Assembly: GCA_947649615.1 (NCBI GenBank)
Contig: CANSSG010000017.1
Coordinates: forward strand, 1 to 58,803
DNA from: an uncultured Clostridia bacterium
GTDB taxonomy: Bacteria; Bacillota; Clostridia; Oscillospirales; Oscillospiraceae
Reading direction: 5' to 3'
Length of the DNA: 58,803 bases
The position numbers were made by a program, and so were the translations under genes. This document shows, one piece after another, positions 7,901-25,038 of the stretch. The notes under the pieces are model-generated. The model made no database searches. It saw only the letters and a list, made by a program, of their open reading frames with translations, and was not told the origin of the DNA. The number at the start of each line of letters is the position of its first letter. Within the stretch, counting starts at the first letter, position 1.

Positions 7901-7931
7901 TTTCCCGGGGGTGGTGAAGTATCCCGGGAAA
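7901..7931 (+). promoter_or_regulatory. Leader hairpin next to the fhs ribosome binding site
   Basis: TTTCCCGGG pairs with CCCGGGAAA, a 9-bp stem with a purine-rich loop, ending one base before the AAGGAGGA ribosome binding site at 7933-7940. Its position suggests an influence on translation initiation. It has no THF-riboswitch signature. Confidence 0.4.
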
Positions 7932-7945
7932 CAAGGAGGATTCCT

Positions 7946-9757
7946 ATGGCAATCGAATTTAAGGACGGCAAGTATGTTGACCCGGTAACCGGGCGGGTGA
8001 CCCTCGATCCCACCGAATATAAGGACTGGCAGATCGCGGAAGAAGCGGAGCGCACACTCCCCCCCGTGGATGAGTTCCGCGAGAAGCTGGGCCTCCTGCC
8101 CGAAGAAATCATCCCCTACGGCAAAACGCCTAAGCTGGACTTCATCAAAATTATGAACCGCCTGAAGGATAAGCCCGACGGCAAGTTTATCGAAGTGACC
8201 GCCATTACCCCCACCCCCCTGGGCGAGGGTAAGTCCACCGTATCCCTGGGCCTGGTGGAAGGCCTGGGCAAGCTGGGCAAGAACGTGGGCGGCTGCCTGC
8301 GCCAGCCCTCCGGCGGGCCTACCATGAACGTCAAGGGTACTGCGGCCGGCGGCGGCAACGCCCTGCTCATGCCCATGACCGAGTTCTCCCTGGGTCTCAC
8401 CGGCGATATCAACGACATCATGAACGCACATAACCTGGCCATGGTGGCGCTGAACGCGCGTATGCAGCACGAGCGCAACTACGACGACGAGCAGCTGGCC
8501 AAGCGCGGCCTCAAGCGGCTGGATATCGACCCCAAGCGCGTGGAGATGGGCTGGGTCCTGGACTTCTGCGCCCAAGGCCTGCGCAATATCATTATCGGCG
8601 TGGGCGGCAATAAGGACGGCTACCTGATGGAGTCCAAGTTCGGCATTGCCGTCGGCTCCGAACTGATGGCAATCCTGGCCGTCGCCACCGACCTGAAGGA
8701 TCTGCGCGAGCGTATCGGCAAGATCGTCGTGGCCTACAACCGCAAGGGCGAGCCTGTGACCACCGAGGACCTGGAAGTCGCCGGCGCCATGACCGCCTGG
8801 ATGCGCAACTGCATCAACCCCACCATGTGCTACACCGTGGAGCATCAGCCCATGCTGATCCACGCCGGCCCCTTCGCCAACATCGCCATCGGCCAGTCCT
8901 CCGTCATCGGCGACCGGCTGGCCCTGAAGCTGTTCGACTACCATGTCACCGAGTCCGGCTTCGCCGCCGACATCGGCTTTGAGAAGTTCTGGAACGTCAA
9001 GAGCCGTCTCAGCGGGCTGACCCCCAACGTCTCCGTGCTGGTGGCTACCATCCGCGCCCTCAAGATGCACGGCGGCGGCCCCACCGTGGTTGCCGGACGG
9101 CCCCTGCCCGAGGAGTACACCAAGGAGAACCTGGAGCTGCTGGAGAAGGGCTGCGAGAACCTGTTCCATCACGTCAACACCATCAAGAAGTCCGGTATCG
9201 TTCCCGTGGTCTGCATCAACCAGTTCTACACCGATACCGAAGAGGAAATCAAGCTGATCCGCCGCCTGTGCGCGGAGCGCGGCGTCCGCTGCGCCCTGAG
9301 CAACCACTGGCGCCTGGGCGGCGAGGGCGCCATTGAGCTGGCCCAGACCGTCGTGGAAGCCTGCGAGGAGAAGAGCGAAATCAAGTTCCTCTATCCCCTG
9401 GAGATGCCCCTGCGCGAGCGCGTGGAAATGATCGCCAAGGAAGTTTACGGCGCGGACGGCGTGGATTGGGCGCCCCTGGCCCTGGAGAAGGCCAAGCGCT
9501 TCGAGTCCGATCCCAAGTATGCCGATTACTGCACCATGATGGTTAAGACCCACCTGTCCCTCAGCCATGAGCCGAGCTGGAAGGGCGTTCCCAAGGGCTG
9601 GCGCCTGCCCATCCGCGACATCCTGGAATACGGCGGAGCCAAGTTCCTCTGCCCGATGGCCGGCACCATCTCCATGATGCCCGGCACCAGCTCCGATCCG
9701 GCGTACCGCCGTATCGACGTCGATACCGAGACCGGCAAGGTTTCCGGCCTGTTCTAA
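7946..9757 (+). CDS. fhs: Formate--tetrahydrofolate ligase (divergent long form)
   Basis: A 603-residue enzyme that makes 10-formyl-THF from formate, THF and ATP, feeding purine synthesis and the methyl branch of C1 metabolism. The nucleotide loop [12 protein letters not shown] lies near residue 87, about 20 residues later than in the usual ~556-residue bacterial enzyme because of an N-terminal extension. The [19 protein letters not shown] motif departs from the common bacterial REPSLGP form and partly resembles the eukaryotic C1-synthase form (RQPSQGP). [20 protein letters not shown] matches the family folate/ATP region. ATG 7946 was chosen for its AAGGAGGA site. Confidence 0.93.
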
Positions 9758-9768
9758 TTTTGTTCCCC

Positions 9769-9799
9769 ACCCCCTGGCGGCGTACCGCCGCCGGGGGGG
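9769..9799 (+). terminator. Terminator-like hairpin after fhs
   Basis: CCCCCTGGCGGCG and CGCCGCCGGGGGG form a strong stem with a TAC loop about 12 bases after the fhs stop. Only a short TT follows, so it may act as an inefficient terminator or an mRNA-stabilising structure. Confidence 0.55.
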
Positions 9800-9801
9800 T
9801 T

Positions 9802-9964
9802 AGAACCTGTATTCACAGGCGATTGACGCCGTCTGGGCGGGTCTTTTGCCGTCCTGCTGCGTTAAAAAATCTTGAAATACACAAAGTATTCCTGGGATTT
9901 TTTGCCTTGCAGGGCGGCAAAATCCCTCGCCCATCCGGCATCCCCGCCTATGAATACAGGTTCT
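9802..9964. mobile_element. 163-bp snapback MITE-like repeat
   Basis: The ends are 20-bp inverted repeats with about 19 matches: AGAACCTGTATTCACAGGCG at 9802-9821 and its complement at 9945-9964. The inside is also self-complementary: TTTTGCCG..CCTGC with GCAGG.CGGCAAAA, AAAAAATC with GGATTTTTT, and ATAC with GTAT around the centre. The whole unit could fold into one long imperfect hairpin. It has no coding capacity. The same terminal 20 bases recur at 55683-55702, showing that it is dispersed in this genome. A TA flank is possible but not certain. Confidence 0.7.
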
Positions 9965-9992
9965 TATTTGCAGGGATTGGCGGGAACCGGCG

Positions 9993-10232
9993 TCAGCGTA
10001 TCTCCAGCATAAACGCAACGCCCAGCTTGAAGCCTTCACGGAAGTTGGCGTAATCGCGGAAATGCGCCACCTTTTCCCAATCGTCTTGGTGGCGTTTGAT
10101 AAATTCTTCCCCCAGCGCTTCCACAATCGCGTCCCGCACCGCGCGCTCTTTTAAGCGCAGCGAAAACGGCATGGCCTCCTGTACCTTGCCCGGCGCATAG
10201 GCGCTGTTGTATATGTCTTGTAAGATGCTCAT
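9993..10232 (-). CDS. Small DUF6809-like protein
   Basis: A 79-residue soluble protein starting SILQDIYNSAY and ending with REGFKLGVAFMLEIR. The tail resembles the GFRLGALLMIEI end of DUF6809 proteins, small proteins of unknown function common in gut Firmicutes and their mobile elements. The ATG at 10232 has an AAGGAG site 7 bases upstream. It is divergent from an XRE regulator 81 bases away, and its promoter carries two copies of a short motif that the regulator probably binds. No membrane segment or signal peptide is seen. Family call is tentative. Confidence 0.55.
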   Translation of the reverse strand: MSILQDIYNSAYAPGKVQEAMPFSLRLKERAVRDAIVEALGEEFIKRHQDDWEKVAHFRDYANFREGFKLGVAFMLEIR

Positions 10233-10249
10233 ACGTATTCTCCTTTTTA

Positions 10250-10294
10250 TTCGTATTTTGCGAGTGCATAAGACAACTCTACTCGTATATTGAG
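10250..10294. promoter_or_regulatory. Paired operator-like motif between the divergent genes
   Basis: On the minus strand, CAATATACGA (10283-10292) and CAAAATACGA (about 10250-10259) differ by one base and are about 33 bases apart, roughly three helical turns. One copy sits inside the promoter spacer and the other lies ahead of the ribosome binding site. This is the arrangement expected of operator sites for the adjacent XRE protein. Binding is inferred, not shown. Confidence 0.45.
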
Positions 10295-10304
10295 AATTTG
10301 TCAA
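10276..10304 (-). promoter_or_regulatory. Promoter of the DUF6809-like gene
   Basis: On the minus strand, TTGACA (10299-10304) and TAGAGT (10276-10281) are spaced by 17 bases. The spacer contains one copy of the CAATATACGA motif that is repeated downstream, so a bound repressor would block this promoter. Confidence 0.65.
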
Positions 10305-10313
10305 GGTGTTTTT

Positions 10314-10568
10314 ATGTTTTCAAAGGATTTATTTGGAAAAAGAATTTTTGAAATTCGAAAATTGAATTGCGAGACGCAAAAGGCTTTTGGAGAAGCGATT
10401 GGTATGAGCAGTAATAACCTTTGCGAGGTGGAAGCAGGGAAAAAGACGACCACTGCTGAAAAAATTGCACTGATATGCAAACACTACCATGTCTCCGCCG
10501 ATTACCTTTTGGGGCTGTCGGATGATGTCAACGGAGGGGTTGAGCGGTGGAGCGGGGAGGAGCCTTAA
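10314..10568 (+). CDS. XRE-family transcriptional regulator
   Basis: An 84-residue helix-turn-helix protein of the Cro/CI (XRE) family that is almost entirely the DNA-binding domain. The helices are visible as GKRIFEIRKLNCETQKAFGEAI, SSNNLCEVEAGKKTTTAEKIAL and CKHYHVSADYLLGLSDDV; the last is the usual end of this small repressor type. ATG 10314 is preferred over an upstream start because AAGGTG lies just before it. It is divergent from the DUF6809-like gene and is likely to repress both genes through the repeated motif between them. Confidence 0.88.
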   Translation: MFSKDLFGKRIFEIRKLNCETQKAFGEAIGMSSNNLCEVEAGKKTTTAEKIALICKHYHVSADYLLGLSDDVNGGVERWSGEEP

Positions 10569-10871
10569 GCCGCGCCGCCGTTCCGCCGGAGTTTGCCGGC
10601 GGAGCGTATCCGCCAGAGATTCCGTCCCCTGGCGGCCCGGGGTATTGAGGGGAATGGACGGGCTGCCAGGCCGCAGCGTAAAATAAAGCACGGCATGCAG
10701 GGGTCCTTAGGGCGGCGCAGCCCCCTAAGCGGTTTTTTGGGGTACTTTTTGTCCGTACAAAAAGTACCCGGGGCGTTTGAGGGCGGGAAGCCCTCAAGGC
10801 TTCCGGCAAGAAAAATTTTTCCCGCGCCCCTCCGGGCGCGATTATGACGCGAAGATGAAAGGAGCAAAAAT
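10569..10871. other. Gene-free stretch before the fchA operon
   Basis: About 300 bases without a credible gene. It contains a small stem (CTTAGGG/CCCTAAG at about 10706-10729), the dispersed hairpin at 10740-10769, and GC-rich self-complementary DNA up to GCGCCCCTCCGGGCGC just before fchA. No convincing promoter was found, although transcription of the fchA operon should begin here. Confidence 0.5.
10740..10769. repeat. Intergenic stem-loop repeat, copy 2
   Basis: GGGTACTTTTTGT pairs perfectly with ACAAAAAGTACCC across a CCGT loop. The stem matches the one at 149-178 apart from one compensated pair, and both are preceded by TTTTTTGG, so these are related dispersed repeats. Confidence 0.65.
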
Positions 10872-11492
10872 ATGGATTTTGCACAGGCGTCTTGTACGGA
10901 ATTTGTAACGGTTTTGGCCTCCAATGCCCCGGTTCCCGGCGGCGGCGGGGCTTCCGCCCTGGTGGGGGCCATCGGCACCGCCCTGGGCAATATGGTCGGC
11001 TCCCTGACGGTGGGCAAGAAGAAATACGCCGATGTAGAAGAAGAAATCATCGCGCTGAAGGCGAAGTGCGACAGCCTCCAAAAGGAGCTGCTGGAGCAGA
11101 TTGCCCTGGACGCCAAGGGCTTTGAGCCGCTGGCGAAGGCCTACGGGATTCCGAAGGACGACCCCTCCCGCGGCAAGGTGCTCGAGGAGGCCACCATCGT
11201 GGCCTGCCAGGTGCCTGTGAAGATTATGGAGCTTTGCTGCGAGTCCCTGGAAGCCATCAAGGTCTTCGCGGAGAAGGGCAGCAGGCTGGCCGTCTCCGAC
11301 GCGGGCTGCGGCGCGGTGTGCGTCAAGGCCGCCCTCCAGGCCGCCTCCCTGAACGTGTTCATTAACACCAAGACCCTCCAAAACCGGGAACTGGCAGAGG
11401 AAATGAACCAGAAATGCCTGGGTATGCTGGATAAATACTGCGCAATGGCTGACGGTATTTTTGAGACCGTTAAGGCCGGGTTCTTTAAGTAA
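10872..11492 (+). CDS. fchA: Cyclodeaminase/methenyl-THF cyclohydrolase family protein
   Basis: A 206-residue all-helical protein of the formiminotransferase-cyclodeaminase family (FTCD_C). It converts 5-formimino-THF to 5,10-methenyl-THF with loss of ammonia, or acts as a methenyl-THF cyclohydrolase. The diagnostic N-terminal PVPGGGGASALVGAIGTALG segment lies near residue 22, followed by MVGSLTVGKKKYADVEEEI. It is first in an apparent operon, 23 bases before folD, with AAAGGAG before its ATG. No formiminotransferase gene is near, so a cyclohydrolase role alongside fhs and folD is the simplest reading. Confidence 0.9.
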   Translation: MDFAQASCTEFVTVLASNAPVPGGGGASALVGAIGTALGNMVGSLTVGKKKYADVEEEIIALKAKCDSLQKELLEQIALDAKGFEPLAKAYGIPKDDPSRGKVLEEATIVACQVPVKIMELCCESLEAIKVFAEKGSRLAVSDAGCGAVCVKAALQAASLNVFINTKTLQNRELAEEMNQKCLGMLDKYCAMADGIFETVKAGFFK

Positions 11493-11515
11493 TTCGAAGG
11501 AGAGAGGAAGAAATT

Positions 11516-12376
11516 ATGGCTAAACAGCTTTTAGGCAAAGAAGTAAACGCCGCCCTCAACGCCCGCATCATCGCTGACTGCGAGGCGGTCAAGGCGAAGG
11601 GCGTCAATCCCACCCTGGCAATCGTCCGCTGCGGCGAGCGTCCTGACGACCTCAGCTACGAGCGCGGCGCCACCAAGCGGGCGGAAACCCTGGGCGTGGC
11701 CGTAGAGAAGGTGGTCCTCCCGGAAACCGTCACGAAGGAAGATCTGCTGAAGGTTATCGACGAGATTAACGCGAATGACAAGATCCACGGCGTTCTGCTG
11801 TTCCGCCCCCTGCCCAAGCACCTTAAGGCCGACCAGGACGAAATCTGCAACCGCCTGGACCCCCGCAAGGACGTGGACGGCATGACCGACCTGTCCAACG
11901 CCGGCGTGTTCATGGGGAAAGAGCTGGGCTTCGCCCCCTGCACCCCCGCCGCCTGCATGGAAATCCTGGACCACTACGGCATCGACTGCACCGGGAAGAA
12001 GGCGGTGGTTATCGGCCGCAGCCTGGTGGTGGGCAAGCCCGCCGGGATTATGCTTATGGGCAAGAACGCTACCGTAACCACCTGCCACACCCGGACGAAG
12101 GATGTGCCTGCCGTGGCCCGGGAAGCCGATATCCTGGTTTCCGCTGCCGGTGTGCTGCACAGCCTGACCAAGGAGTATGTGCGGCCCGGCCAGATCGTTA
12201 TCGACGTGTCCATCAACTGGGACGAGGCCAAGGGCGGCATCGCGGGCGACGCCGTGTATGAGGAAGTGGAGCCGGTCGTTGAGGCGATCACCCCCGTCCC
12301 CGGCGGCGTGGGCGCCGTGACTACCTCCGTGCTGATCGGGCATGTGGTGGAGGCGGCCAAGCGCACCCTTGGCTGA
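11516..12376 (+). CDS. folD: Bifunctional methylene-THF dehydrogenase/methenyl-THF cyclohydrolase
   Basis: A 286-residue enzyme interconverting methylene-, methenyl- and 10-formyl-THF with NAD(P). The catalytic Tyr/Lys pair lies in DLSYERGATKRAETLG near residue 47. The substrate-binding RPLPKHLKADQDE and DPRKDVDGMTDLSNAG segments follow. The Rossmann nucleotide site VVIGRSLVVGKPAGIMLMGK lies near residue 163, with CHTRTKDVP after it and the C-terminal TPVPGGVGAVTTSVL motif. A GAGAGGAAG site precedes the ATG. It lies 23 bases behind fchA and 15 ahead of a DUF1576 gene. Confidence 0.96.
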   Translation: MAKQLLGKEVNAALNARIIADCEAVKAKGVNPTLAIVRCGERPDDLSYERGATKRAETLGVAVEKVVLPETVTKEDLLKVIDEINANDKIHGVLLFRPLPKHLKADQDEICNRLDPRKDVDGMTDLSNAGVFMGKELGFAPCTPAACMEILDHYGIDCTGKKAVVIGRSLVVGKPAGIMLMGKNATVTTCHTRTKDVPAVAREADILVSAAGVLHSLTKEYVRPGQIVIDVSINWDEAKGGIAGDAVYEEVEPVVEAITPVPGGVGAVTTSVLIGHVVEAAKRTLG

Positions 12377-12391
12377 TGGGGGGCGTTTTTA

Positions 12392-13726
12392 TTGGCAAAC
12401 AAGAAAAACGAGGGCATTAGCAGCGTAAATATTATCCGTATTTTTCTTTTGGCGTCCTCGGCGGCCTACTTTATTGCCGCCGTGGTTTTGGGCTTGGCCG
12501 ATGGCGCGATGCTGCCCGGGCTGGCCCAGATATTGATGTCCCCCGCCCAGCTTACCAAAGATTATTTTGAGATCGGCAGCATTTCCGGCACGTTTCTCAA
12601 CGTCTCCCTGGTAGGCTTTGTGTGTGCGGCCATGGCCTGCCTGCCTGGGGCTGTGGTCAATGGCGGCACCATCGCGGCTTATTTCCTGACCACCGGGTTC
12701 TCCTTCTGGGGCATCAATTTCTTGAATATGTGGCCCTTTTTCCTGGGGGTCATGGTTCATGCCCTGGTGCGCCGGGAGCCGTTCCCGAAGTATGTGAACC
12801 TCGCCATGTTCGCTACCGCGCTGTGTCCCTTTGCCAGCGAGCTGCTGCTGCGCTACCCGCGTAGCGAGGGGGCGCCCGGCGTGACCCTCCCCGGCGTGGC
12901 GCTGATGCTGGCAGTGGGTATGCTCATTGGCTTTATGACGCCCGCTATGGCGGCGCATTCCCCCAACGTACATAAGGGGTACGATTTGTACTCCGCCGCC
13001 CTGCCGGGGGTGCTGCTGGGGCTGTTCGGGGTGGCCGTGCTGTATAAGACGCTGGGCCATGAGGTCCCCGCTATTACCGCTACCCTGGGCGGTAGCCATC
13101 CGGGGGTCGTGTGGACCTTCTGCGGGGTTTTCTTCGGGCTGTGCGTACTGGCGGGCTTTTGGCTTAACGGGAAGAGCTTCAGGGGATATGCCGGCCTGCT
13201 CAAAGATACCGGCCACAAGGCGGACTTTGTGGCCAAGTACGGACCCGGCCTTGCCATTATGAATTTCGGGTTCTATGGGCTGATGATTACGGCGTATTAT
13301 ATTTTGGTGCGCGGGTCCTTTAACGCTGTGACGATAGGTATTATCTTTTGTATGGTCTGCTTCGGCGCGGCGGGGGCGCACCCCGGCAATATTTGGCCGA
13401 TCATGGTGGGGTATGTGTTGTTTTCCTGCTTTGCTACCTACTGTCTCGGCGGGGTGTTCCCGGTGAATGCCCAGGCGATTCTGGTCGGGCTGTGCTTCGC
13501 CAGCGGGCTGGCGCCTATTGCAGGGAATTACGGCTGGTGGGCCGGTATCCTGGCGGGGGGGATGCACTATTTTTTAGTGACTTCCATTCCGGCTATTCAC
13601 GGGGGGTTCAGCCTGTATAACGGCGGGTTTACCTCCTTGGTGATTGCAACCATTCTGGTGCCGCAGTTGGAGACCTTCTGCAAGACCAAGGCCCAGCGGC
13701 TGGAGGCTAAGAACCAGGCGAAATAA
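12392..13726 (+). CDS. DUF1576 polytopic membrane protein
   Basis: A 444-residue integral membrane protein with about ten to twelve hydrophobic segments, matching DUF1576, a Firmicute family without assigned function. It starts with TTG at 12392, 15 bases after the folD stop, and ends 27 bases before the 5-formyl-THF cyclo-ligase gene, so it is embedded in a folate operon. The protein looks internally repetitive: the first half has GFVCAAMACLPGAVVNGG and the second has GIIFCMVCFGAAGAHPGNIW. It could be a transporter or channel for a folate or C1-linked compound, but that is inference from context only. Confidence 0.75.
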   Translation: MANKKNEGISSVNIIRIFLLASSAAYFIAAVVLGLADGAMLPGLAQILMSPAQLTKDYFEIGSISGTFLNVSLVGFVCAAMACLPGAVVNGGTIAAYFLTTGFSFWGINFLNMWPFFLGVMVHALVRREPFPKYVNLAMFATALCPFASELLLRYPRSEGAPGVTLPGVALMLAVGMLIGFMTPAMAAHSPNVHKGYDLYSAALPGVLLGLFGVAVLYKTLGHEVPAITATLGGSHPGVVWTFCGVFFGLCVLAGFWLNGKSFRGYAGLLKDTGHKADFVAKYGPGLAIMNFGFYGLMITAYYILVRGSFNAVTIGIIFCMVCFGAAGAHPGNIWPIMVGYVLFSCFATYCLGGVFPVNAQAILVGLCFASGLAPIAGNYGWWAGILAGGMHYFLVTSIPAIHGGFSLYNGGFTSLVIATILVPQLETFCKTKAQRLEAKNQAK

Positions 13727-16649: not shown

Positions 16650-16698
16650 AAACAACAGCCGCCAGGGAAGGACAAGCCTTCCCTGGCGGCTGTTGTTT
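16650..16698. terminator. Bidirectional terminator between convergent genes
   Basis: AAACAACAGCCGCCAGGGAAGG pairs perfectly, over about 22 bp, with its complement ending at 16698, around an ACAAG loop. It is A-rich on one flank and T-rich on the other. It begins at the stop codon of the minus-strand dehydrogenase gene and also faces the sensor kinase, so it can serve both strands. Confidence 0.85.
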
Positions 16699-17918
16699 CA
16701 TTCCACGGCCCGCAGCCCCTCCATGGTCTCCCGCAGCCGTTCCAGCAGCGCCTCCGGCAGAGGCAGCCGCTCCATTTCCGGCCCGTTTGCCGCCAGCCGG
16801 TTCCGCACACCCATAAACACCCCGTCCAGAAACACGGACGAATACTGCCACTCCCCCCGCAGGCAGGCCAGCAGGCTCAGCGCCCCGGAGGACAGCGCAG
16901 GGGCCACATAGGGCTTGAATCCCAGCTTCCGCATATCCAAATTAGCGTGTTTGGTTTGCTCGGTCAGTTCCCGGGAGAGTGCGCCGTCGTACCGCGCAAT
17001 CGAGTTCGCCGCCACCAGCCCCTCGCCGTGGGGTCCAAAAACCCGCCCGTCGTCAAGGAAACCAGCATACCTGGGGTCCCGCTGCGCGTAGTACTTCGCC
17101 CTGGCGTACATGACCCCCAGCCCAAACCCCCGCACCTGATGGGGGAAAAGCCCCAGGCAGTCCAGCACCCCGTCCGCATTCTGATTGCTCTCCGCCAGCA
17201 CGGCGCGGCAGAGCTGATCCACCGGGTCGCTGACCACGCAGAACATGCCTTGAAATTTCTGCTCTCGGGCCATCTTCCCATAGCTGGCCGCCAGCGGCCG
17301 GTTCAATTCATACTGTGCCATGCGCACGTCGCCGCTTTTCACGGCGGTATCAGGCACAAACCGGGACGCGCAGAACAAGAACACGTCGCAGTCAAAAACC
17401 TCCTCCGGCTTCACAATATGAACCCTTGGGGATTCCACCGCAATCTGATTTAACTCAAACTCCCACCGTTCCGGCACATTTTCCCGCAAATCGCAGATCC
17501 CCAGCGAGGACACCACGTCCCCCCCCATCAGCCGCAGCCCCATGGCCAGCGTACTGCCCACGTCGCCAAGGGCCAGCAGGTTGACCCGGTAAGCTTTTTT
17601 CTTCAGCGGCAGTTCCAGCAATTCCTCCCACCTGGGATGCTCCCTATTCACAGCCCTCACCCGGCCCCCGGCGGCGGCGTGGGCCAGTTCCTCCGGCAGC
17701 TCCGGCGCACCGTCCGAAACCGCCAGCGTCTCCGCGCCCTCCCGGCTGGAAAACTGGGCGGGATGCGTCACGGCAAAGGTTTCCCGCCCGGCTAGCGGCG
17801 TCCTGCGGAACAGCCAGAGGACGTCCCCCGCGTCCGGCAGCGCATCCAGGGGCTTCCCGGGAAGCGGCGCCTCCCCGCACAGTACATGGTTTTGAAACAA
17901 GGAATAAAACATACGCAT
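16698..17918 (-). CDS. Lactate/malate dehydrogenase-like protein
   Basis: A 406-residue protein with an LDH/MDH-type core and an unusual N-terminal region of about 110 residues. The nucleotide-binding loop LALGDVGSTLAMGLRLMG lies near residue 116, then CDLRENV, the SDPVDQLCRAVL segment equivalent to the TNPVD motif, and GPHGEGL, which aligns with the catalytic histidine motif of LDH/MDH. ATG 17918 overlaps the fusion-gene stop as TGATG, implying translational coupling; GTG 17921 is the alternative. Its steady partner is the upstream 1602-residue fusion. The substrate is unknown, and a plain lactate or malate dehydrogenase is unlikely given the size and context. Confidence 0.75.
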   Translation of the reverse strand: MRMFYSLFQNHVLCGEAPLPGKPLDALPDAGDVLWLFRRTPLAGRETFAVTHPAQFSSREGAETLAVSDGAPELPEELAHAAAGGRVRAVNREHPRWEELLELPLKKKAYRVNLLALGDVGSTLAMGLRLMGGDVVSSLGICDLRENVPERWEFELNQIAVESPRVHIVKPEEVFDCDVFLFCASRFVPDTAVKSGDVRMAQYELNRPLAASYGKMAREQKFQGMFCVVSDPVDQLCRAVLAESNQNADGVLDCLGLFPHQVRGFGLGVMYARAKYYAQRDPRYAGFLDDGRVFGPHGEGLVAANSIARYDGALSRELTEQTKHANLDMRKLGFKPYVAPALSSGALSLLACLRGEWQYSSVFLDGVFMGVRNRLAANGPEMERLPLPEALLERLRETMEGLRAVE

Positions 17919-20900
17919 CACCCAATCACAATTTTTACACTGGCCTGGAGCCGTTTGAGCATCTCGATGTCGTTGTCGAGATAAGCCGACGCGGCCCTGT
18001 TCAAGTCATAGGCCATACAGCTCCCTTTATCCGGGCAGAGGGGCAGGATCACCGCTTCGCTTAACCGGCTGAGGGTCAGATTCCTGGCAAACAGCGCCCG
18101 GTACTCCGTCTCCAGGGTAAGCAGGATATCCCTGGCGTTTTCCAGGCAGCACAAGCTGAGATGGTACGTGGAGCCGTCGGCGCAGTCCTCGCTGAAATCC
18201 GGCGCGGCGTAGGGAAAAATCCGGTTCACCGCCGGCTGAAGCCCCCCGGCCATCGGCTCGGGCCGCCGCACGGTGTCCCCGCCGATAAAGGGGTACAAAG
18301 TGGATTCCACAAACCGCATCCGCAGGTTGGGCAGATAGTACACGCTGTCAATAGGATACCCCAGCTGCTCCATCGTGTCCCGTCCCATGCCCGTCAGGTA
18401 TCCTACCAACACCTGCCGCACAGCCGTCCCGGTTTCCGCCAGCAGCGGCGCAATCCGGTGGATCCGCTTCCCGTCGTGAAGCATATCGTCCACCAGGATG
18501 ACCGGCCGGTCAAAGGCCCGGATGGTCCGCACCTGGTCCTCCAGGGGCGAATAGAAGGGATAGGCTTCCACAGAAAACCTGGAAAGGTCCGGCTCGTACA
18601 CCTTATCCGTGTGGAGGGTTTTGGTGACGGTATTCGGCACGGCCACCCCCCGCAGGATTTTCCCGAAGGGGACGCAGATGCACTCGCCCAATACCCTTGG
18701 CTGGGCAGGCTGGGGAGCCACGCCGTTGCAGGCGGCAATCCGCCGCAGCAGCCTTTGGTATACCACCCCTGCCGACATGGACAGCACCAGGCACCCGGGG
18801 TACAGCTCCGTCAGCGCCTTTTGCAGCTTCCTGTGGGCGGCGGCCACCGCCGAAAGCACCCGCGGATTCGCGTTCAGCGGCGCTTTGATCGTCGTTTCCA
18901 CGTTCCGCGTAAGGACGATCGGCCTGCGCATATCCACCACCAGCAATTCCTGGTCACGGTCCCGGACCGGCGCCGGGACGAAGCCCTGCAAATCCATGAC
19001 CTCCCGCACATACCCCACCGAAGCCTCGGCGGGACAGTACAGGGCGAAGGTAAACTCCTGTCGCAGGGCGGTGGTAAGCACCTCCGTCAAGAGGAACTGG
19101 CACAAATCCAGCTGCGCCGGGGATTTCGGCACATAGATGCCGCTGATGACCAGCACCCGCCCCCCGGTCTCCCGGCGGATGAACGCGGAAAGCTGGGCAT
19201 TCCCCAGCCTGGAAAAGAGCTGCTGGGATTCCAGGCAGCGGTAGCTGGCAAAGCCCAGGGCCGCGTCCCCCCGCCGCAATACGCACAGGTGGTCGCCCAG
19301 CCTCCCCAGGGTTTCACACAGCCACTCGGGGTCGGGATGGCCCGCCAGCACCGTCTGGCGCAGGGCGTCCCCCACATCCTCCGACAGCGCCGCGTACCGC
19401 TGGAAATGTAGCTCATCCAACCGCAACAGCGGCTTATCCTGGGGTTCCCGGAGGTACAGCCCGTGGCGGTAGATAAACTCCTGGGCCACCGGGTCGATCA
19501 GGTTAGAGATGTCCCGCCCCTGGTCGATGGCCTCCCGGATGCGGGTGGAGCTGATTTCCTCCAAGTGGGTCGGCAGCTTCAGCTCCGTAACCCGTCCGGT
19601 AATGGCGCTGTAGTCATGGGGGTCGGCCCTGCCGCTCTGGTCCCTGCGGAAGATGATGTGGTGGAGGGTGTGGATAGAATTTTCCTCCGGCTGTTTGCGG
19701 TAAGAGGACGCGTTTGCCACCACGTCGCTCCCGGCAACAATGGAGACCTCCCGGTCCGGGAACGCCGCCCGCAGCGCGGCAAGATTTTCAGGATTGGCGA
19801 TATTCACCGGGAAATTTTCCGGGAAGATATGCACATGGAACTGGTCCGCCGTAGAGATAGACGCCAGCCGCCGCCGCACCCGGTGGGGCTGCGTCTTTTT
19901 AGACCAGGAAAATTCGTCAATCGCCAGCAGCACCTCATACCCCAAATCCCGGATCGCCTGGACAATGCCTTTGTGGGACAAGGTAAAGGGGTCGAAGGTT
20001 CCGGGGAAGAAGGCCACGGGCCTGGGTTCCTCAAACCGGAACCCGCCGTATAAAATATCCTGCTCCGTAAGGAACCGGTACACCCTGCCCAGCATGGCGG
20101 CGCGGTAGTAGAAGGTCAGCTCCTCCCCCTGGTCCTCCCGCAGAAGGGCCAGGATTTTTTTCAGCGTCAGGAGGAACGCCCTGCGCTTTTCATGGACGCC
20201 CAGTATCTCAGAGCCGAACACATGCCGCCCCAGGACGAACAGCGCTTCCTGCCGCACCTCGGCCCGGAAGCCCGCCAGCCCCTTGAGCAGCATGCCCAGC
20301 AGCCGCTCCCTGCGGCGGCGGTAGACCGCATCCTCTTCCGGGAAGCGGACGCGGTAGACGTCATACTCCTCATAGACAACCCCCACGGCGTCCAAAGCGG
20401 CGGCGGCGACGCGGCTGTTGGAGGAGCAGAGGGAGTCGTCCAGTTCGCTGAGGATTTCCTCCATCTGCACCGGCGGCAGCCACAAGCAGAACCGCCCCAG
20501 GTAGCCCGGGATATACTTGGCGAATTCCTGCTGCCCGATTTCCAGCCCCCGGCACAATTCCACGGCCACCTCGTTGCGCTCCTCGGCGGACAGCAGCCCA
20601 GCGATGGACAGCAGGGCGTTCCCCGCCGCGTGGCGGACGGTGACCCGGTCGCTGACCTTCACAAGGTTGGTCAAATGGGTCGCGATGTGGAGCAGGCTCC
20701 CCCCGCCGGACTGGGCAAGCTGGGCCAGCAGCCGGATATTGACTTCCTTCAAAATCCACGGCGTAGCGGTCTTCAGGTTGTCGAGGAAAATCTCCGACAC
20801 CGCCTCCCTGGGCAGGAACAGGGAGCCGCCCCGCCCGGCAACGTCCGACACCGCCTGTTCCCGCAGCAGCGCCAGGGTGCCGCAGCCGCTGCAGTTCACC

Positions 20901-22726
20901 TCCCGCAGGGCGTTGAGCAGCACGTCCTGGGTAGAGACGGCGGAGCGCAGGTAGTCCAGCAGCAGCACCGCCGCCGTGCGCACAGTGACATCCCGCCGCC
21001 CGGAGAGGGCCTGGGCGAAGGCCAGCAGGTCATAGCGCTGGGGGTCTGCCAGAACCTCCACCGGCAGGGCGGTCGCGGTCTCCAAAAGCTGGAAGGCGGT
21101 CTCATCCTCCAGCCGCTCGGGGCGGCGGTAATAGCGCAGGAATTCCTCTAAAAACAGGTTCCGCCGCTCCGCCGGGCATTTTTCCAGCAGGGAGTTGACC
21201 ACCATTTTCAAGGTAAAACTGATCCACCGCCGGTGCTGCGCCATCAGCTTCCGGTCAGGCCGGATCAGCTTATTCAGGTACAGCCTCCACTGGTCTAAAT
21301 CCGCGTCCTCCCGCACGTCGGGCGGGCGGTCCGCAGGCGATTCCTTCGCATACCCGGCGTGGAACCGGGCGATGATCTCGCCCATGAGCGCCGCCGCCTG
21401 CCTCCGAATGTCCCCCTCCCGGTGCATCAGCAGCTCGTAGAGGAAGGCCAGGGTTTGCACCTTCTGGGAGCGGCTGAGGTAGACGGAATAGGACTCAAAC
21501 ACCCCCAAGTAAGCCCGCAGCCGCCGCCAGTCGGTCTCGCCCCTGGCCTGCTCCAGCAGGCTGGCAAAGCTTCTCTGGCCGGTGAGCCGGCTCATAAGGG
21601 CCACATTATGCTCCACGCCCAGCATCCGCAAAGCTTCCACGGCCTCCGGCAGCTCCATGAGGGCGGCGTCCCGCTGGGGGGCCGCCCCGGCGAACTGGCC
21701 AGAGAGGGAGGTGTCCACCCCCAGGCTCTCCATATACCGCTCAAAATCCCGCAGCTTGGCGTAGACAAAGGTATACCGGGTGCGCTTTTCGTTGGTGACG
21801 TTGTCCAGCTTGTTGAGGATGACGTCGAAAGCTTCCGCCAGGGTGGAAATCTTTGTAATTTCCCGCCCGTCCGGACCCCGCTCCTGCTTCACCCGGAAGT
21901 CGGCGTAAATCAGCGCCAGGCTCTCCGCCGACAGGTAATCCAGCTCCAAATCCCAAACGGAGTGGTTGGCGGCCACGTAGCCGATATCCTCCATATGCCG
22001 CCGGAGGAACCACAGGTCGGTGTAGTAGTAGTGGAGGTAAGGCACCCGCTCCCCCGCCCTGCATCCAAACTTTCCGATATCATGCCCCGCCGCGCTGGCG
22101 GACACCAGGGGCAGGTCGATAGGCACCCCCGCCCGCTTCAAGTCTCTGGCCGCACTGACGGCCACATGATGAACCCCGGCAATATGCTCCAGGGTCCGCC
22201 AGGGGGTGGCCTCCAGCCCCAGGCGCATCATTTCATAGACGAACTCCCTGCGGTAAGAGCGCAAAAACTGCCGGTAGCTGTCCTGGTGGGCGCTGCCCTC
22301 CAGCTCCTCTTCCTCCAGCAGGGCCAAATCCCACATCGGGTCCGGGGGCAGCATGTCCCGTTCCGCGTCAAAGAGGGCCTGGAGCAGGGCGAGGAAGAAG
22401 GACGCACCCGCCCCATGGGCCTCCCGGCGGGGTTCAAAGGACGTCTCCGGGAACATGGACTTCCGGGCGAAGTCATAGGTAAAGGCCAGCCACCCCTCCT
22501 CCGGGCAGGGGGAGAGGGCCTCCAGCTCCTCCCGGCACAATTCCAGGACGGCGGCGCAGGAAATCCGCGTACCGTCAAAAAGCGGGGCGAACCGCTGTAA
22601 ATAGTTTTCCTCCTCCAGCCATTGCCGCAGCAGGGAGCGGCAGGGGGCCAGGTATTTGACCGCCGGCTGGGCGGTTACCCGGCGCAGCAGGCTTCCGGCC
22701 ATCTGCCGGATACGTTTTTTGTTCAT
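17918..22726 (-). CDS. 1602-residue HD / repeat / nucleotidyltransferase / phosphoribosyltransferase fusion
   Basis: A very large cytoplasmic protein with several enzyme-like parts. Residues about 180-310 form an HD hydrolase domain (HHVAVSAARDL, then AAGHDIGKFG near 214), recalling YqeK. Residues about 400-890 are leucine-rich helical repeats of HEAT type. At 901-1095 is a NadD/cytidylyltransferase-type domain (FFPGTFDPFTLSHKG near 905, AGSDVVANASSY, ISSTRIREAI). A GNAT-like stretch at about 1104-1290 is less certain. A phosphoribosyltransferase-type domain follows, with VILVDDMLHDGKR near 1408, and then a helical tail. The ATG has a GGAGGA site, and the stop overlaps the dehydrogenase start. 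Domain calls are by eye; the overall function is unknown. Confidence 0.8.
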   Translation of the reverse strand: MNKKRIRQMAGSLLRRVTAQPAVKYLAPCRSLLRQWLEEENYLQRFAPLFDGTRISCAAVLELCREELEALSPCPEEGWLAFTYDFARKSMFPETSFEPRREAHGAGASFFLALLQALFDAERDMLPPDPMWDLALLEEEELEGSAHQDSYRQFLRSYRREFVYEMMRLGLEATPWRTLEHIAGVHHVAVSAARDLKRAGVPIDLPLVSASAAGHDIGKFGCRAGERVPYLHYYYTDLWFLRRHMEDIGYVAANHSVWDLELDYLSAESLALIYADFRVKQERGPDGREITKISTLAEAFDVILNKLDNVTNEKRTRYTFVYAKLRDFERYMESLGVDTSLSGQFAGAAPQRDAALMELPEAVEALRMLGVEHNVALMSRLTGQRSFASLLEQARGETDWRRLRAYLGVFESYSVYLSRSQKVQTLAFLYELLMHREGDIRRQAAALMGEIIARFHAGYAKESPADRPPDVREDADLDQWRLYLNKLIRPDRKLMAQHRRWISFTLKMVVNSLLEKCPAERRNLFLEEFLRYYRRPERLEDETAFQLLETATALPVEVLADPQRYDLLAFAQALSGRRDVTVRTAAVLLLDYLRSAVSTQDVLLNALREVNCSGCGTLALLREQAVSDVAGRGGSLFLPREAVSEIFLDNLKTATPWILKEVNIRLLAQLAQSGGGSLLHIATHLTNLVKVSDRVTVRHAAGNALLSIAGLLSAEERNEVAVELCRGLEIGQQEFAKYIPGYLGRFCLWLPPVQMEEILSELDDSLCSSNSRVAAAALDAVGVVYEEYDVYRVRFPEEDAVYRRRRERLLGMLLKGLAGFRAEVRQEALFVLGRHVFGSEILGVHEKRRAFLLTLKKILALLREDQGEELTFYYRAAMLGRVYRFLTEQDILYGGFRFEEPRPVAFFPGTFDPFTLSHKGIVQAIRDLGYEVLLAIDEFSWSKKTQPHRVRRRLASISTADQFHVHIFPENFPVNIANPENLAALRAAFPDREVSIVAGSDVVANASSYRKQPEENSIHTLHHIIFRRDQSGRADPHDYSAITGRVTELKLPTHLEEISSTRIREAIDQGRDISNLIDPVAQEFIYRHGLYLREPQDKPLLRLDELHFQRYAALSEDVGDALRQTVLAGHPDPEWLCETLGRLGDHLCVLRRGDAALGFASYRCLESQQLFSRLGNAQLSAFIRRETGGRVLVISGIYVPKSPAQLDLCQFLLTEVLTTALRQEFTFALYCPAEASVGYVREVMDLQGFVPAPVRDRDQELLVVDMRRPIVLTRNVETTIKAPLNANPRVLSAVAAAHRKLQKALTELYPGCLVLSMSAGVVYQRLLRRIAACNGVAPQPAQPRVLGECICVPFGKILRGVAVPNTVTKTLHTDKVYEPDLSRFSVEAYPFYSPLEDQVRTIRAFDRPVILVDDMLHDGKRIHRIAPLLAETGTAVRQVLVGYLTGMGRDTMEQLGYPIDSVYYLPNLRMRFVESTLYPFIGGDTVRRPEPMAGGLQPAVNRIFPYAAPDFSEDCADGSTYHLSLCCLENARDILLTLETEYRALFARNLTLSRLSEAVILPLCPDKGSCMAYDLNRAASAYLDNDIEMLKRLQASVKIVIG

Positions 22727-22812: not shown

Positions 22813-25038
22813 TTATTTCGTTCTCCTTACGATTTCCTGAATCGCCCGCAGCAGGGCCGGCACATCCAAGGGCTTTGCCAGATGGGCGTCCATCCCGGCG
22901 TCCAGGGACTTCTGCATATCGCTCTCAAACACATTGGCGGACAGGGCCACAATAGGGACCGCGGCCCGCCCCGGCTCCGGCAGGGCGCGGATGGCCCGTG
23001 CGGCTTCCCACCCGTCCATCACCGGCATCTGGATGTCCATTAAGATGAGGTCGTAGGTCTCCGGCGGCGCGGCGCTGACCATTTCCACCGCCTCCTTCCC
23101 ATCATCGGCGGTATCTACCGTAAAACCGATATGGGTCAGGATGGCCGTTTCGATCTCCTGGTTGATAAAGTTGTCCTCCACCAGGAGGATATGGCGGCAG
23201 AGGATGCTGGCGGGGCCGTCCTCCCCCGCCGGGACCGCTTCCCCGCAGGGCTGCAAGCGCAGGCGCAGGGTGACGGTAAAGGTGCTGCCCTCCCCCACGG
23301 CGCTCTGGACCTCGATGCTGCCGCCCAGCAGCTCCGCGATGTTCCGCGCGATGGTCAGGCCAAGCCCTACGCCGTGGATGCCGCTGAGGGTCGTGTTCCG
23401 CTCCCGGGTAAACGGCTCAAAAATCTGCTGGATAAACTCTTCCCCGATGCCGATGCCCGTATCCTTTACCGCAATCTGATAGACGGCGCAGCCGTTAGGC
23501 AGCTCCTCCCGCTCCACGGCGGTCAGGGAGACGCGGCCGCCGGCCTGGGTATAGGTCACGGCGTTGTTGGCCAGGTACATCACCAATTGGTTCAGCTTTT
23601 CCCGGTCGCCGAACACCGCATCATGAATGGTCTGGGTGCAGTCCATGGTAAAGGCCAGCCCCTTTTCCTCCGCCTGGGGCAGCAAAAAATCATAGACCTC
23701 CGCCAAAACCTCCCGCAGGGAGCAAGGCTCCTCCTCCGCCCTGGCCTCGTTGGAATCCATCCAGGACAGCTTGAGCACCTTGTCGATCATATCCAGGAGT
23801 TGGCGGCTGCTGCCCTCGATGCGGTCCAGATAGCCGCCCAAGGCTTCCGGATTGGCCAGGTTGTGCCGCGCCAGGGCGGTGAAGCCGAAAATCGCGTTCA
23901 GCGGCGTACGCATGTCATGGGACATATTGGACAGGAAGGTGTTTTTCGCCACAATGGATGAGTTGGCGTTATTGAGCGCCTCCTCCAACACCTGCTTCTG
24001 CTCCATCTCCATCTGAAGCTCCTCGTCCATCCGGCGGCAGCCCATGACGGCCTGGGACGCCCGGTCCTTCCGGCCCGCGCTGGCGAAACGGATCTGGAGA
24101 TACCCCACCGCCCCGTCCTCCACCACCCGGTAATTGAGACAAAAGGTGGGCTCGCCGCTGAGCCGCTGGCGGATATAGGCGGGATTGGTCTCCCGCTCCA
24201 CCCTGGCCCGGTCGCTGGGATGGACCCAGGCCTGGACGTAGGCCGCCATGGCGGCGGCGTACTCCTGGGTGATATGCGGCTCGCTGAAAATGGGCCGGGT
24301 CCTGCCGCTGGTGCGGTAGGGCAGGATGGTGCCGCCGTCCAAGTCCACGTAGAAGATGGATTCGTAGCTTACGCTCAGACCCTCGATCACTTCCAGCCGG
24401 CGCAGGTATTCCTGGTTGATCAACTCCCGTTCCTTGTCGTATTCGTCAATCAACTCCTGCCACTTCTGGTCGCTGGCTTCCTTTTCGCGGACCAGGCGGG
24501 CCTTTTCAACCTGTTCCCGCCGCTTCTTTTCCGTGGCGTCCACCAGGAATACATAGAAGATATCCCCCATAGCCTCGCTGTGGGCGAAATGGCCGTAATC
24601 CTCGATCCAGCGCACGGACCCATCCTTCCTGATGGCCCGGTATTCTACATAGTCCAGGTCGAAGCGGCTGGCGGCGATCTGCCGCCGGATGCTCTCCTGC
24701 ACCTCCGGCAGGTCCTCCGGCGCCACCATGCCCCGGAAAGAGTTCCCGGTCAGCAACCGGAACTCCTCTATGCTTTCACATCCGTAGATGCGCTGCAAGC
24801 CATGGTTGGCGTACAGAATATCCTCCCCGCCGTCCGCCCGGTAGATCAAAAAGCCGCCGGGCATTTCCTCCATAAAGGAAATAAAGTCCTTGGCCGCTCT
24901 GATTTCCGCGCCGTCGGGCAATTCGCCCTCCACCGGCACGCTTTTCGTCCCAAGCTGCCCGGAAGCGGCCAAATGGCTCTGGAAGAGGTCGATGAGGTTC
25001 AGCATATGCTCAATAACGGGATGGTCCCGGTTCCCCAT
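22813..25038 (-). CDS. Hybrid sensor histidine kinase/response regulator
   Basis: A 741-residue soluble hybrid kinase with no clear membrane segment. PAS-like domains occupy about residues 48-165 and 215-330, joined by a charged coiled coil (KKRREQVEKARLVREKEA). The phosphoacceptor box SHDMRTPLNAIFGF lies near residue 374. The ATPase domain covers about 430-590, with DTGIGIGEEF and HGVGLGLTIARNIAELLGG. A C-terminal receiver begins HILLVEDNFINQEI near 620, with its phospho-aspartate in LILMDIQMPVMDGW near 668. No output partner is adjacent. A cytosolic signal read by PAS is likely; the ligand is unknown. Confidence 0.93.
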   Translation of the reverse strand: MGNRDHPVIEHMLNLIDLFQSHLAASGQLGTKSVPVEGELPDGAEIRAAKDFISFMEEMPGGFLIYRADGGEDILYANHGLQRIYGCESIEEFRLLTGNSFRGMVAPEDLPEVQESIRRQIAASRFDLDYVEYRAIRKDGSVRWIEDYGHFAHSEAMGDIFYVFLVDATEKKRREQVEKARLVREKEASDQKWQELIDEYDKERELINQEYLRRLEVIEGLSVSYESIFYVDLDGGTILPYRTSGRTRPIFSEPHITQEYAAAMAAYVQAWVHPSDRARVERETNPAYIRQRLSGEPTFCLNYRVVEDGAVGYLQIRFASAGRKDRASQAVMGCRRMDEELQMEMEQKQVLEEALNNANSSIVAKNTFLSNMSHDMRTPLNAIFGFTALARHNLANPEALGGYLDRIEGSSRQLLDMIDKVLKLSWMDSNEARAEEEPCSLREVLAEVYDFLLPQAEEKGLAFTMDCTQTIHDAVFGDREKLNQLVMYLANNAVTYTQAGGRVSLTAVEREELPNGCAVYQIAVKDTGIGIGEEFIQQIFEPFTRERNTTLSGIHGVGLGLTIARNIAELLGGSIEVQSAVGEGSTFTVTLRLRLQPCGEAVPAGEDGPASILCRHILLVEDNFINQEIETAILTHIGFTVDTADDGKEAVEMVSAAPPETYDLILMDIQMPVMDGWEAARAIRALPEPGRAAVPIVALSANVFESDMQKSLDAGMDAHLAKPLDVPALLRAIQEIVRRTK

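Follow-up and report, generated by a model that had tools for sequence, protein, structure and literature searches.

A conserved five-domain fusion protein with two redox-type partners, possibly for making or repairing an NAD-like molecule

Contig CANSSG010000017.1 of an uncultured Clostridia bacterium (assembly GCA_947649615.1), whose full 58,803 nucleotides are the window analysed here, encodes on its minus strand a 1602-residue protein followed by a gene for a protein resembling lactate and malate dehydrogenases (LDH and MDH). What does so composite a protein do, and does its neighbour work with it? An earlier note, made from the letters alone, had suggested that the pair acts on a nucleotide or dinucleotide cofactor. 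We find that the fusion is real, conserved and patchily widespread, and that it has a second partner, a protein of the FMN (flavin mononucleotide)-reductase family newly recognised here. Together with its two redox-type partners it may make or repair a molecule resembling nicotinamide adenine dinucleotide (NAD). The searches made matched the module to no described system; its component folds are known, and novelty is claimed at the level of the system.

The fusion gene (17918..22726 including the stop, minus strand) is one intact open reading frame of five parts, as the earlier note had it. It is single copy in its own genome, and the domains are collinear in 72 aligned copies, the most distant at 33% identity. 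These copies come from six phylum loci and from 66 of 80 fusion loci (the window plus 18 genus, 31 family and 30 class or order loci). Left out of the alignment were five fragments (L039, L043, L094, L103, L165), two copies with unread bases (L032, L146) and, though full-length, L035, L036, L038, L041, L042, L044 and L106. Counts out of 69 omit three second paralogues, which are described below.

The distribution was surveyed with a profile built on the phosphoribosyltransferase (PRTase)-like part, in family, order, class and phylum samples that overlap. In the family sample 43 of 300 genomes carry the fusion, from 17 of 106 genera; among them is L105, which matches over 43 positions at the end of a contig and was left out. 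The class sample has it in 31 of 391 genomes, from 22 of 223 genera, and the phylum sample in 8 of 398, two of these eight being the window's own genome and one class member. The order sample gave matches in 13 of 394 genomes, of which three marginal ones (E 3e-4 to 6e-4, frames of 89-333 residues) are not counted as members. Most matches lie in frames of 1530-1701 residues (36 of 43 in the family, 31 of 34 in the class). In a sample of 60 relatives the window's genome and 24 others of its genus all have the fusion; the other 35 gave no full-length match, four of them having weak matches to the nucleotidyltransferase part. The fusion tree mostly tracks families, and some placements suggest transfer. 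The fusion gene, the LDH-like gene and the third gene stand in a row in one named isolate, Acetoanaerobium noterae DSL2. The A. noterae record (L204, NZ_CP154629.1) is a 2.63 Mb circle filed as a plasmid with 4 annotated features, and its size suggests a chromosome. At L080:4612-11454 a 2280-residue open frame carries about 660 extra residues ahead of the fusion. Narrow literature searches, most requiring three to five terms together, found no title or abstract opening naming this architecture. A role in anti-phage defence was rejected, since PADLOC gave 0 families for all three proteins (E 0.01) and the fusion is constant within the genus sample; a phage origin was also rejected, with 0 matches in phages and 16 pattern stretches in viral contigs that included no relative.

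The LDH-like gene (407 residues, 16698..17921, minus strand, probable start ATG 17912-17910) lies immediately downstream of the fusion. The fusion stop codon falls within TGATG, and the consensus start of the LDH-like family is 5 bases past that stop. The gene follows the fusion on the same strand in 73 of 80 loci, with a gap of at most 118 nucleotides in 62 of the 70 measured (L087, L097 and L098 make up the 73), and is found in 5 of six further phylum loci. It does not adjoin at seven loci. At L044 and L110 the stretch ends just past the fusion; the others are L046, L083 and, among second paralogues, L150, L158, L166. The genomes of L044 and L046 (G019 and G014) carry it on a different contig. 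At E 1e-20 all 25 fusion genomes of the relatives sample, which belong to one genus, have the LDH-like protein, versus 0 of 35 relatives lacking the fusion (Fisher p 2e-17; this and the p value below are overstated, as species are not independent). The tie to the dehydrogenase-like neighbour drawn in the earlier note is borne out by these counts.

Where other genes separate the LDH-like gene from the fusion, they vary by locus (ammonium transporter and glutamate synthase at L142, an SNF2 helicase at L107, a PhzF-like gene at L102) and look like insertions; a conserved wider neighbourhood was rejected on this ground. The L142 insert (7921-13233) has its counterpart in L143, of the same family, which carries the same clusters at the same place. 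Nine genus loci (L031:6904-7890, L032, L036, L037, L038, L041, L042, L043, L048) have a short LDH-like protein of 320-333 residues that lacks the roughly 100-residue N-terminal extension of most others. Two other genus members (L045:12775-14478 and L047:12730-14451) have LDH-like frames of 567-573 residues with about 160 extra C-terminal residues, a possible fusion.

The third partner was missed by the earlier note, being encoded on another contig in this genome; the neighbourhood survey it had proposed did confirm the dehydrogenase pair. The two members scanned match Pfam FMN_red (E 3.9e-20 and 1.8e-15), and four Cys (C-x2-C-x4-C-x8-C) are invariant in 48 of 48 copies. Searches of PDB sequences returned 0 matches at E 0.01. 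The gene is present in 48 of 80 fusion stretches and lies within 85 nucleotides of the LDH-like gene in 44 of the 46 measured. In the class sample the protein occurs in 30 of 31 fusion genomes versus 0 of 360 without the fusion (Fisher p 4e-44), as judged at E 1e-40 with a profile built from copies near fusions, weaker matches in fusion-free genomes not being listed. The sole exception is a genome that is 82% complete (G901). All 30 class copies match at 4e-131 or better, and in the window's genome the next-best match is 1.4e-6. Inter-copy distances are correlated among the three proteins (r 0.86, 0.89 and 0.77 over 49 loci), as expected for joint descent; shared ancestry alone suffices for this.

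The domains of the fusion offer clues to its chemistry, with their motifs read in the light of general enzyme knowledge. Residues 141-345 (21692..22306) form an HD phosphohydrolase domain. Its putative metal ligands H181, H215, D216 and D276 are invariant in 72 of 72 copies and have the H...HD...D pattern of the family; H232 and H255 are equally invariant. Pfam HD (PF01966) matches 28 of 38 members at E 0.1 (best 5.6e-6), the window protein itself having no match at E 1. HEAT-like helical repeats follow at residues 346-895 (20042..21691), with Pfam HEAT matching 26 of 38 members at E 0.1 (best 5.8e-7). A profile of both regions found just weak matches in the PDB, either unrelated or to helical repeats. 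The earlier note had linked the HD domain to YqeK, and this link fails: hhalign against the NadD-YqeK fusion of the same genome gives E 0.46 with the alignment outside the HD motif, and TIGR00488 (YqeK) has no match at E 0.01 in the two fusion stretches scanned.

Residues 896-1098 (19433..20041) form a nucleotidyltransferase domain of NadD fold, with the motifs GTFDP..(T/S)x(S/G)H, DEFSWSK and ISSTxxR. G909, D912, H918, D937, E938, W941, K943, G999, D1001, S1059, S1060 and R1064 are invariant in 69 of 69 copies, and the DEFSWSK stretch is invariant or nearly so throughout the 72. A first structure model, from a shallow alignment, reached a pLDDT (predicted local distance difference test) of 55 and yet matched the NadD and GNAT folds; a second, confident model (pLDDT 89.7) provides the structure prediction called for in the earlier note and matches the same two folds. 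The NadD-type assignment in that note holds, given the fold, the whole-domain alignment, GTFDP, H918 (the second H of (H/T)xGH) and ISSTxxR. The score against NadD itself (TIGR00482) is 43.8 bits, under the curated cut-off of 112.45. The genome also encodes an ordinary NadD-YqeK fusion of 431 residues on another contig (L193:2455-3750). The 1602-residue protein was therefore rejected as the housekeeping NadD, and it has an additional role because the genome keeps that separate enzyme.

Which nucleotide the domain accepts bears on what the module makes. In E. coli NadD the pyridine makes stacking contacts with H45 and W117, and its carboxyl or amide is bonded by Y118 (PMC8035330). The W117 site corresponds to Y1009, which is Tyr in 68 of 69 fusion copies, and the Y118 site to position 1010, which is Arg or Lys in 55 of 69; this mapping was carried through an alignment to E. 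faecium NadD, the match of the two NadDs being our own reading, and the loop alignment is uncertain. The PPHK stretch, which holds H45, gives way to DEFSWSK. These substitutions would fit a substrate that is a related but different nucleotide.

These sites also bear on another explanation, in which the module serves NAD salvage, damage control and proofreading, making or repairing ordinary NAD or damaged forms of it. The PRTase-like and nucleotidyltransferase domains would rebuild the dinucleotide, the HD domain would destroy incorrect ones, and abnormal reduced forms would fall to the dehydrogenase-like and flavin proteins. There is a precedent in the minimal Mycoplasma protein JCVISYN3A_0380, in which the HD enzyme YqeK is fused to NadD, has diphosphatase activity on analogues of nicotinic acid adenine dinucleotide and has been proposed to proofread (PMC9426524). 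The NadD fold and the co-occurring redox-type partners agree with such a role. Since the HD domain is not YqeK, a NadD-YqeK is already present and the pyridine contacts look altered, we regard NAD repair as somewhat unlikely.

It is also conceivable that the acceptor is no pyridine at all, and that a nucleotide-linked intermediate or nucleoside natural product is formed by nucleotidyl activation of a small metabolite, with the two redox-type partners as its reductases. Enzymes of the nucleotidyltransferase superfamily serve many acceptors, phosphopantetheine adenylyltransferase (PPAT) structures match this domain too, though less well, and the invariant DEFSWSK is unlike NadD. Against this, the NadD-type C-terminal YI..LY segment is present, and no conserved transporter or other biosynthetic gene lies nearby: beyond the two partners, every neighbour cluster is limited to 7 or fewer of 81 compared stretches, neighbourhoods only being considered. 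Such a pathway appears unlikely.

Three genomes (G820, G862 and G967) carry a second fusion copy (L150:7827-12722, L158:5197-10113, L166:5378-10093), and these form one clade with support 1.00. None has an LDH-like gene within the 13.5-17 kb stretches examined. ISSTxxR is altered or deleted in all three, and G909 or GSD is altered in some, while the HD and PRTase motifs are intact. Since the copies without the adjacent LDH-like gene are damaged in the nucleotidyltransferase only, the dehydrogenase seems to go with the nucleotidyltransferase and not with the HD or PRTase-like domain.

Residues 1103-1266 (18929..19420) have a GNAT fold in the predicted structure by fold search, so that the GNAT-like stretch of the earlier note stands as a fold. 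The Q/RxxGxG/A acetyl-CoA loop is found in 0 of 69 copies at the expected site (similar hexamers are scattered in the region in 19 of 72), and only 1 column in 170 is invariant, making this the least conserved domain save the N-terminal 140 residues. It is probably inactive and without acetyl-CoA binding.

The PRTase-like domain (residues 1269-1500, 18227..18922) carries the motifs VILVDDMLHDGKR and VPNTVTK..H..K. Pfam Pribosyltran (PF00156) matches 18 of 33 members at E 1 (best 0.0016), the window domain scoring 14.6 bits, below the cut-off of 26.3, and hhalign against the genome's xanthine PRTase gives a probability of 33%. In the 72 copies the acidic pair and loop are largely kept (D1413 in 71, D1414 in 67, G1419 in 71), the Thr of the TG loop not being conserved; in the 69 non-paralogue copies D1413, G1419, R1421 and K1369 are each kept in 68 and D1414 in 64. 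No PRTase was among the 50 fold matches listed despite the confident model, an absence that is uninformative; the matches listed were adenylyltransferases and, in one search, a single GNAT. A conserved C-terminal helical tail, seen in model and alignment, completes the protein (residues 1501-1602, 17921..18226).

The LDH-like protein matches Ldh_1_N (PF00056) at E 2.2e-5 with a score just under the cut-off, scores 25 bits against PRK00066 (cut-off 339) and, in its Rossmann part, aligns by hhalign with the LDH of the same genome (E 1.3e-7). Its C-terminal half lies outside that alignment, so that the active-site mapping, made with MAFFT, rests on motif and spacing; residues carry LDH numbering. 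Arg109, Arg171 and His195 equivalents are kept in 75 of 75, 73 of 73 and 73 of 73 readable copies, the spacing between the last two being 24 residues in both the window protein and the genome's LDH, and the NAD-ribose Asp is retained in 71 of 75. The Asp168 proton-relay site is Met in 73 of 73 and the Asn140 site Asp in 74 of 74. The dehydrogenase of the earlier note is confirmed in its Rossmann domain and these three residues and not in its proton relay; because Met replaces the relay Asp throughout, ordinary LDH or MDH chemistry is doubtful.

Altered sites such as these raise the possibility of a sensor or scaffold, whose domains would bind NAD(H), phosphoribosyl pyrophosphate and similar ligands while the HEAT array signals redox state to the partners, with little catalysis by the fusion. 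The HEAT-like repeats, the inactive-looking GNAT fold, the altered PRTase loop and the altered LDH active site are all compatible with it. The complete putative HD ligand set and the complete nucleotidyltransferase motif argue otherwise, since whole catalytic sets are rarely kept by pure binding proteins. A sensor appears distinctly unlikely, and the conserved sites agree with the earlier note in pointing to active sites rather than decay.

The explanation that we tentatively prefer, while holding it at somewhat less than an even chance, is that the three proteins make, edit and use a pyridine-dinucleotide-like cofactor; the link to nucleotide or dinucleotide metabolism suggested in the earlier note is itself likely. 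The PRTase-like domain would add ribose-5-phosphate to a base, or handle a related sugar phosphate, and the NadD-fold domain would join the mononucleotide to a nucleotide, probably adenosine monophosphate (AMP) from ATP. The HD domain would hydrolyse spent or wrong product, and the HEAT and GNAT-fold parts may keep the active sites together. The LDH-like protein would bind the product through its NAD-type Rossmann fold, and the FMN-reductase-family protein with its four conserved Cys could exchange electrons with the same system.

Several points weigh against this cofactor explanation. With DEFSWSK in place of the NadD PPHK region, nicotinic acid mononucleotide need not be the substrate. The PRTase identity is weak, with low profile scores, xG for the usual TG and no PRTase among the listed folds, and an LDH-like protein with Met for the proton-relay Asp may be no redox enzyme. 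The FMN_red-family gene is outside the available stretch in 32 of 80 loci (past a contig end, or at another place, as in the genome studied here). The three paralogues stem from a single duplication and count as one evolutionary event, and their genomes carry an LDH-like gene next to the first fusion copy. Co-occurrence tallies species, not independent gains. The reactions, substrate and product are what we infer from domains (the PRTase weakly), invariant residues, gene order and co-occurrence.

Cells are generally held to depend on NAD(P), flavins and a small set of special carriers. That anaerobes of many families share this three-protein module suggests an undescribed cofactor or, alternatively, an undescribed NAD-repair route. 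A bolder and rather improbable version is that the product is a natural, non-canonical dinucleotide redox cofactor, an NAD analogue with another base or nucleotide half, for which the 1600-residue chain would serve as assembly line and proofreader and a private dehydrogenase and flavoprotein as users, orthogonal to cellular NAD. Engineered NadD variants produce nicotinamide cytosine dinucleotide (NCD), termed non-natural by its authors (PMC8035330); a natural counterpart, if true, would be both a surprise and a tool.

The host is a gut bacterium with a genome of 2.65 Mb (95.8% complete, 70 contigs, the window being one whole contig, C17), and its closest named relatives are metagenome-assembled genomes labelled Oscillibacter sp., Oscillospiraceae bacterium and Clostridia bacterium. 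Upstream of the fusion on the same strand is a hybrid histidine kinase (22813..25038, minus strand), its domains assigned by eye. Of 81 compared stretches 4 have its gene cluster (c10), so its linkage is not conserved and it is probably outside the module. By eye, GGAGG precedes the fusion ATG, and a GC-rich inverted repeat lies between the two genes.

Each component has a known counterpart from which it departs. The nucleotidyltransferase domain shares with NadD the whole-domain fold, GTFDP, (T/S)x(S/G)H, ISSTxxR and YI..LY, but has DEFSWSK at the PPHK region and is embedded in a 1600-residue chain in a genome with its own NadD. Its best PDB sequence match is VPA0413 of Vibrio parahaemolyticus (3h05, E 1.3e-6), which has the same W.K motif at the PPHK site; that protein stands alone at 177 residues and is uncharacterized by its PDB name. 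The LDH-like protein shares the Rossmann domain and the R109, R171 and H195 equivalents with L-lactate dehydrogenase, and differs in Asp168 to Met, Asn140 to Asp and the N-terminal extension of most copies. The third partner resembles the NADPH-dependent FMN reductase family in its Pfam match, but has an extra N-terminal part of about 150 residues and the four invariant Cys. The nearest whole system is the NadD-YqeK fusion (PRK07152; JCVISYN3A_0380, PMC9426524), where a single chain likewise combines an HD hydrolase with a NadD-fold domain. In the 1602-residue protein, by contrast, the HD domain is N-terminal and not alignable to YqeK, and HEAT, GNAT and PRTase-like parts and two co-occurring redox-type partners are added.

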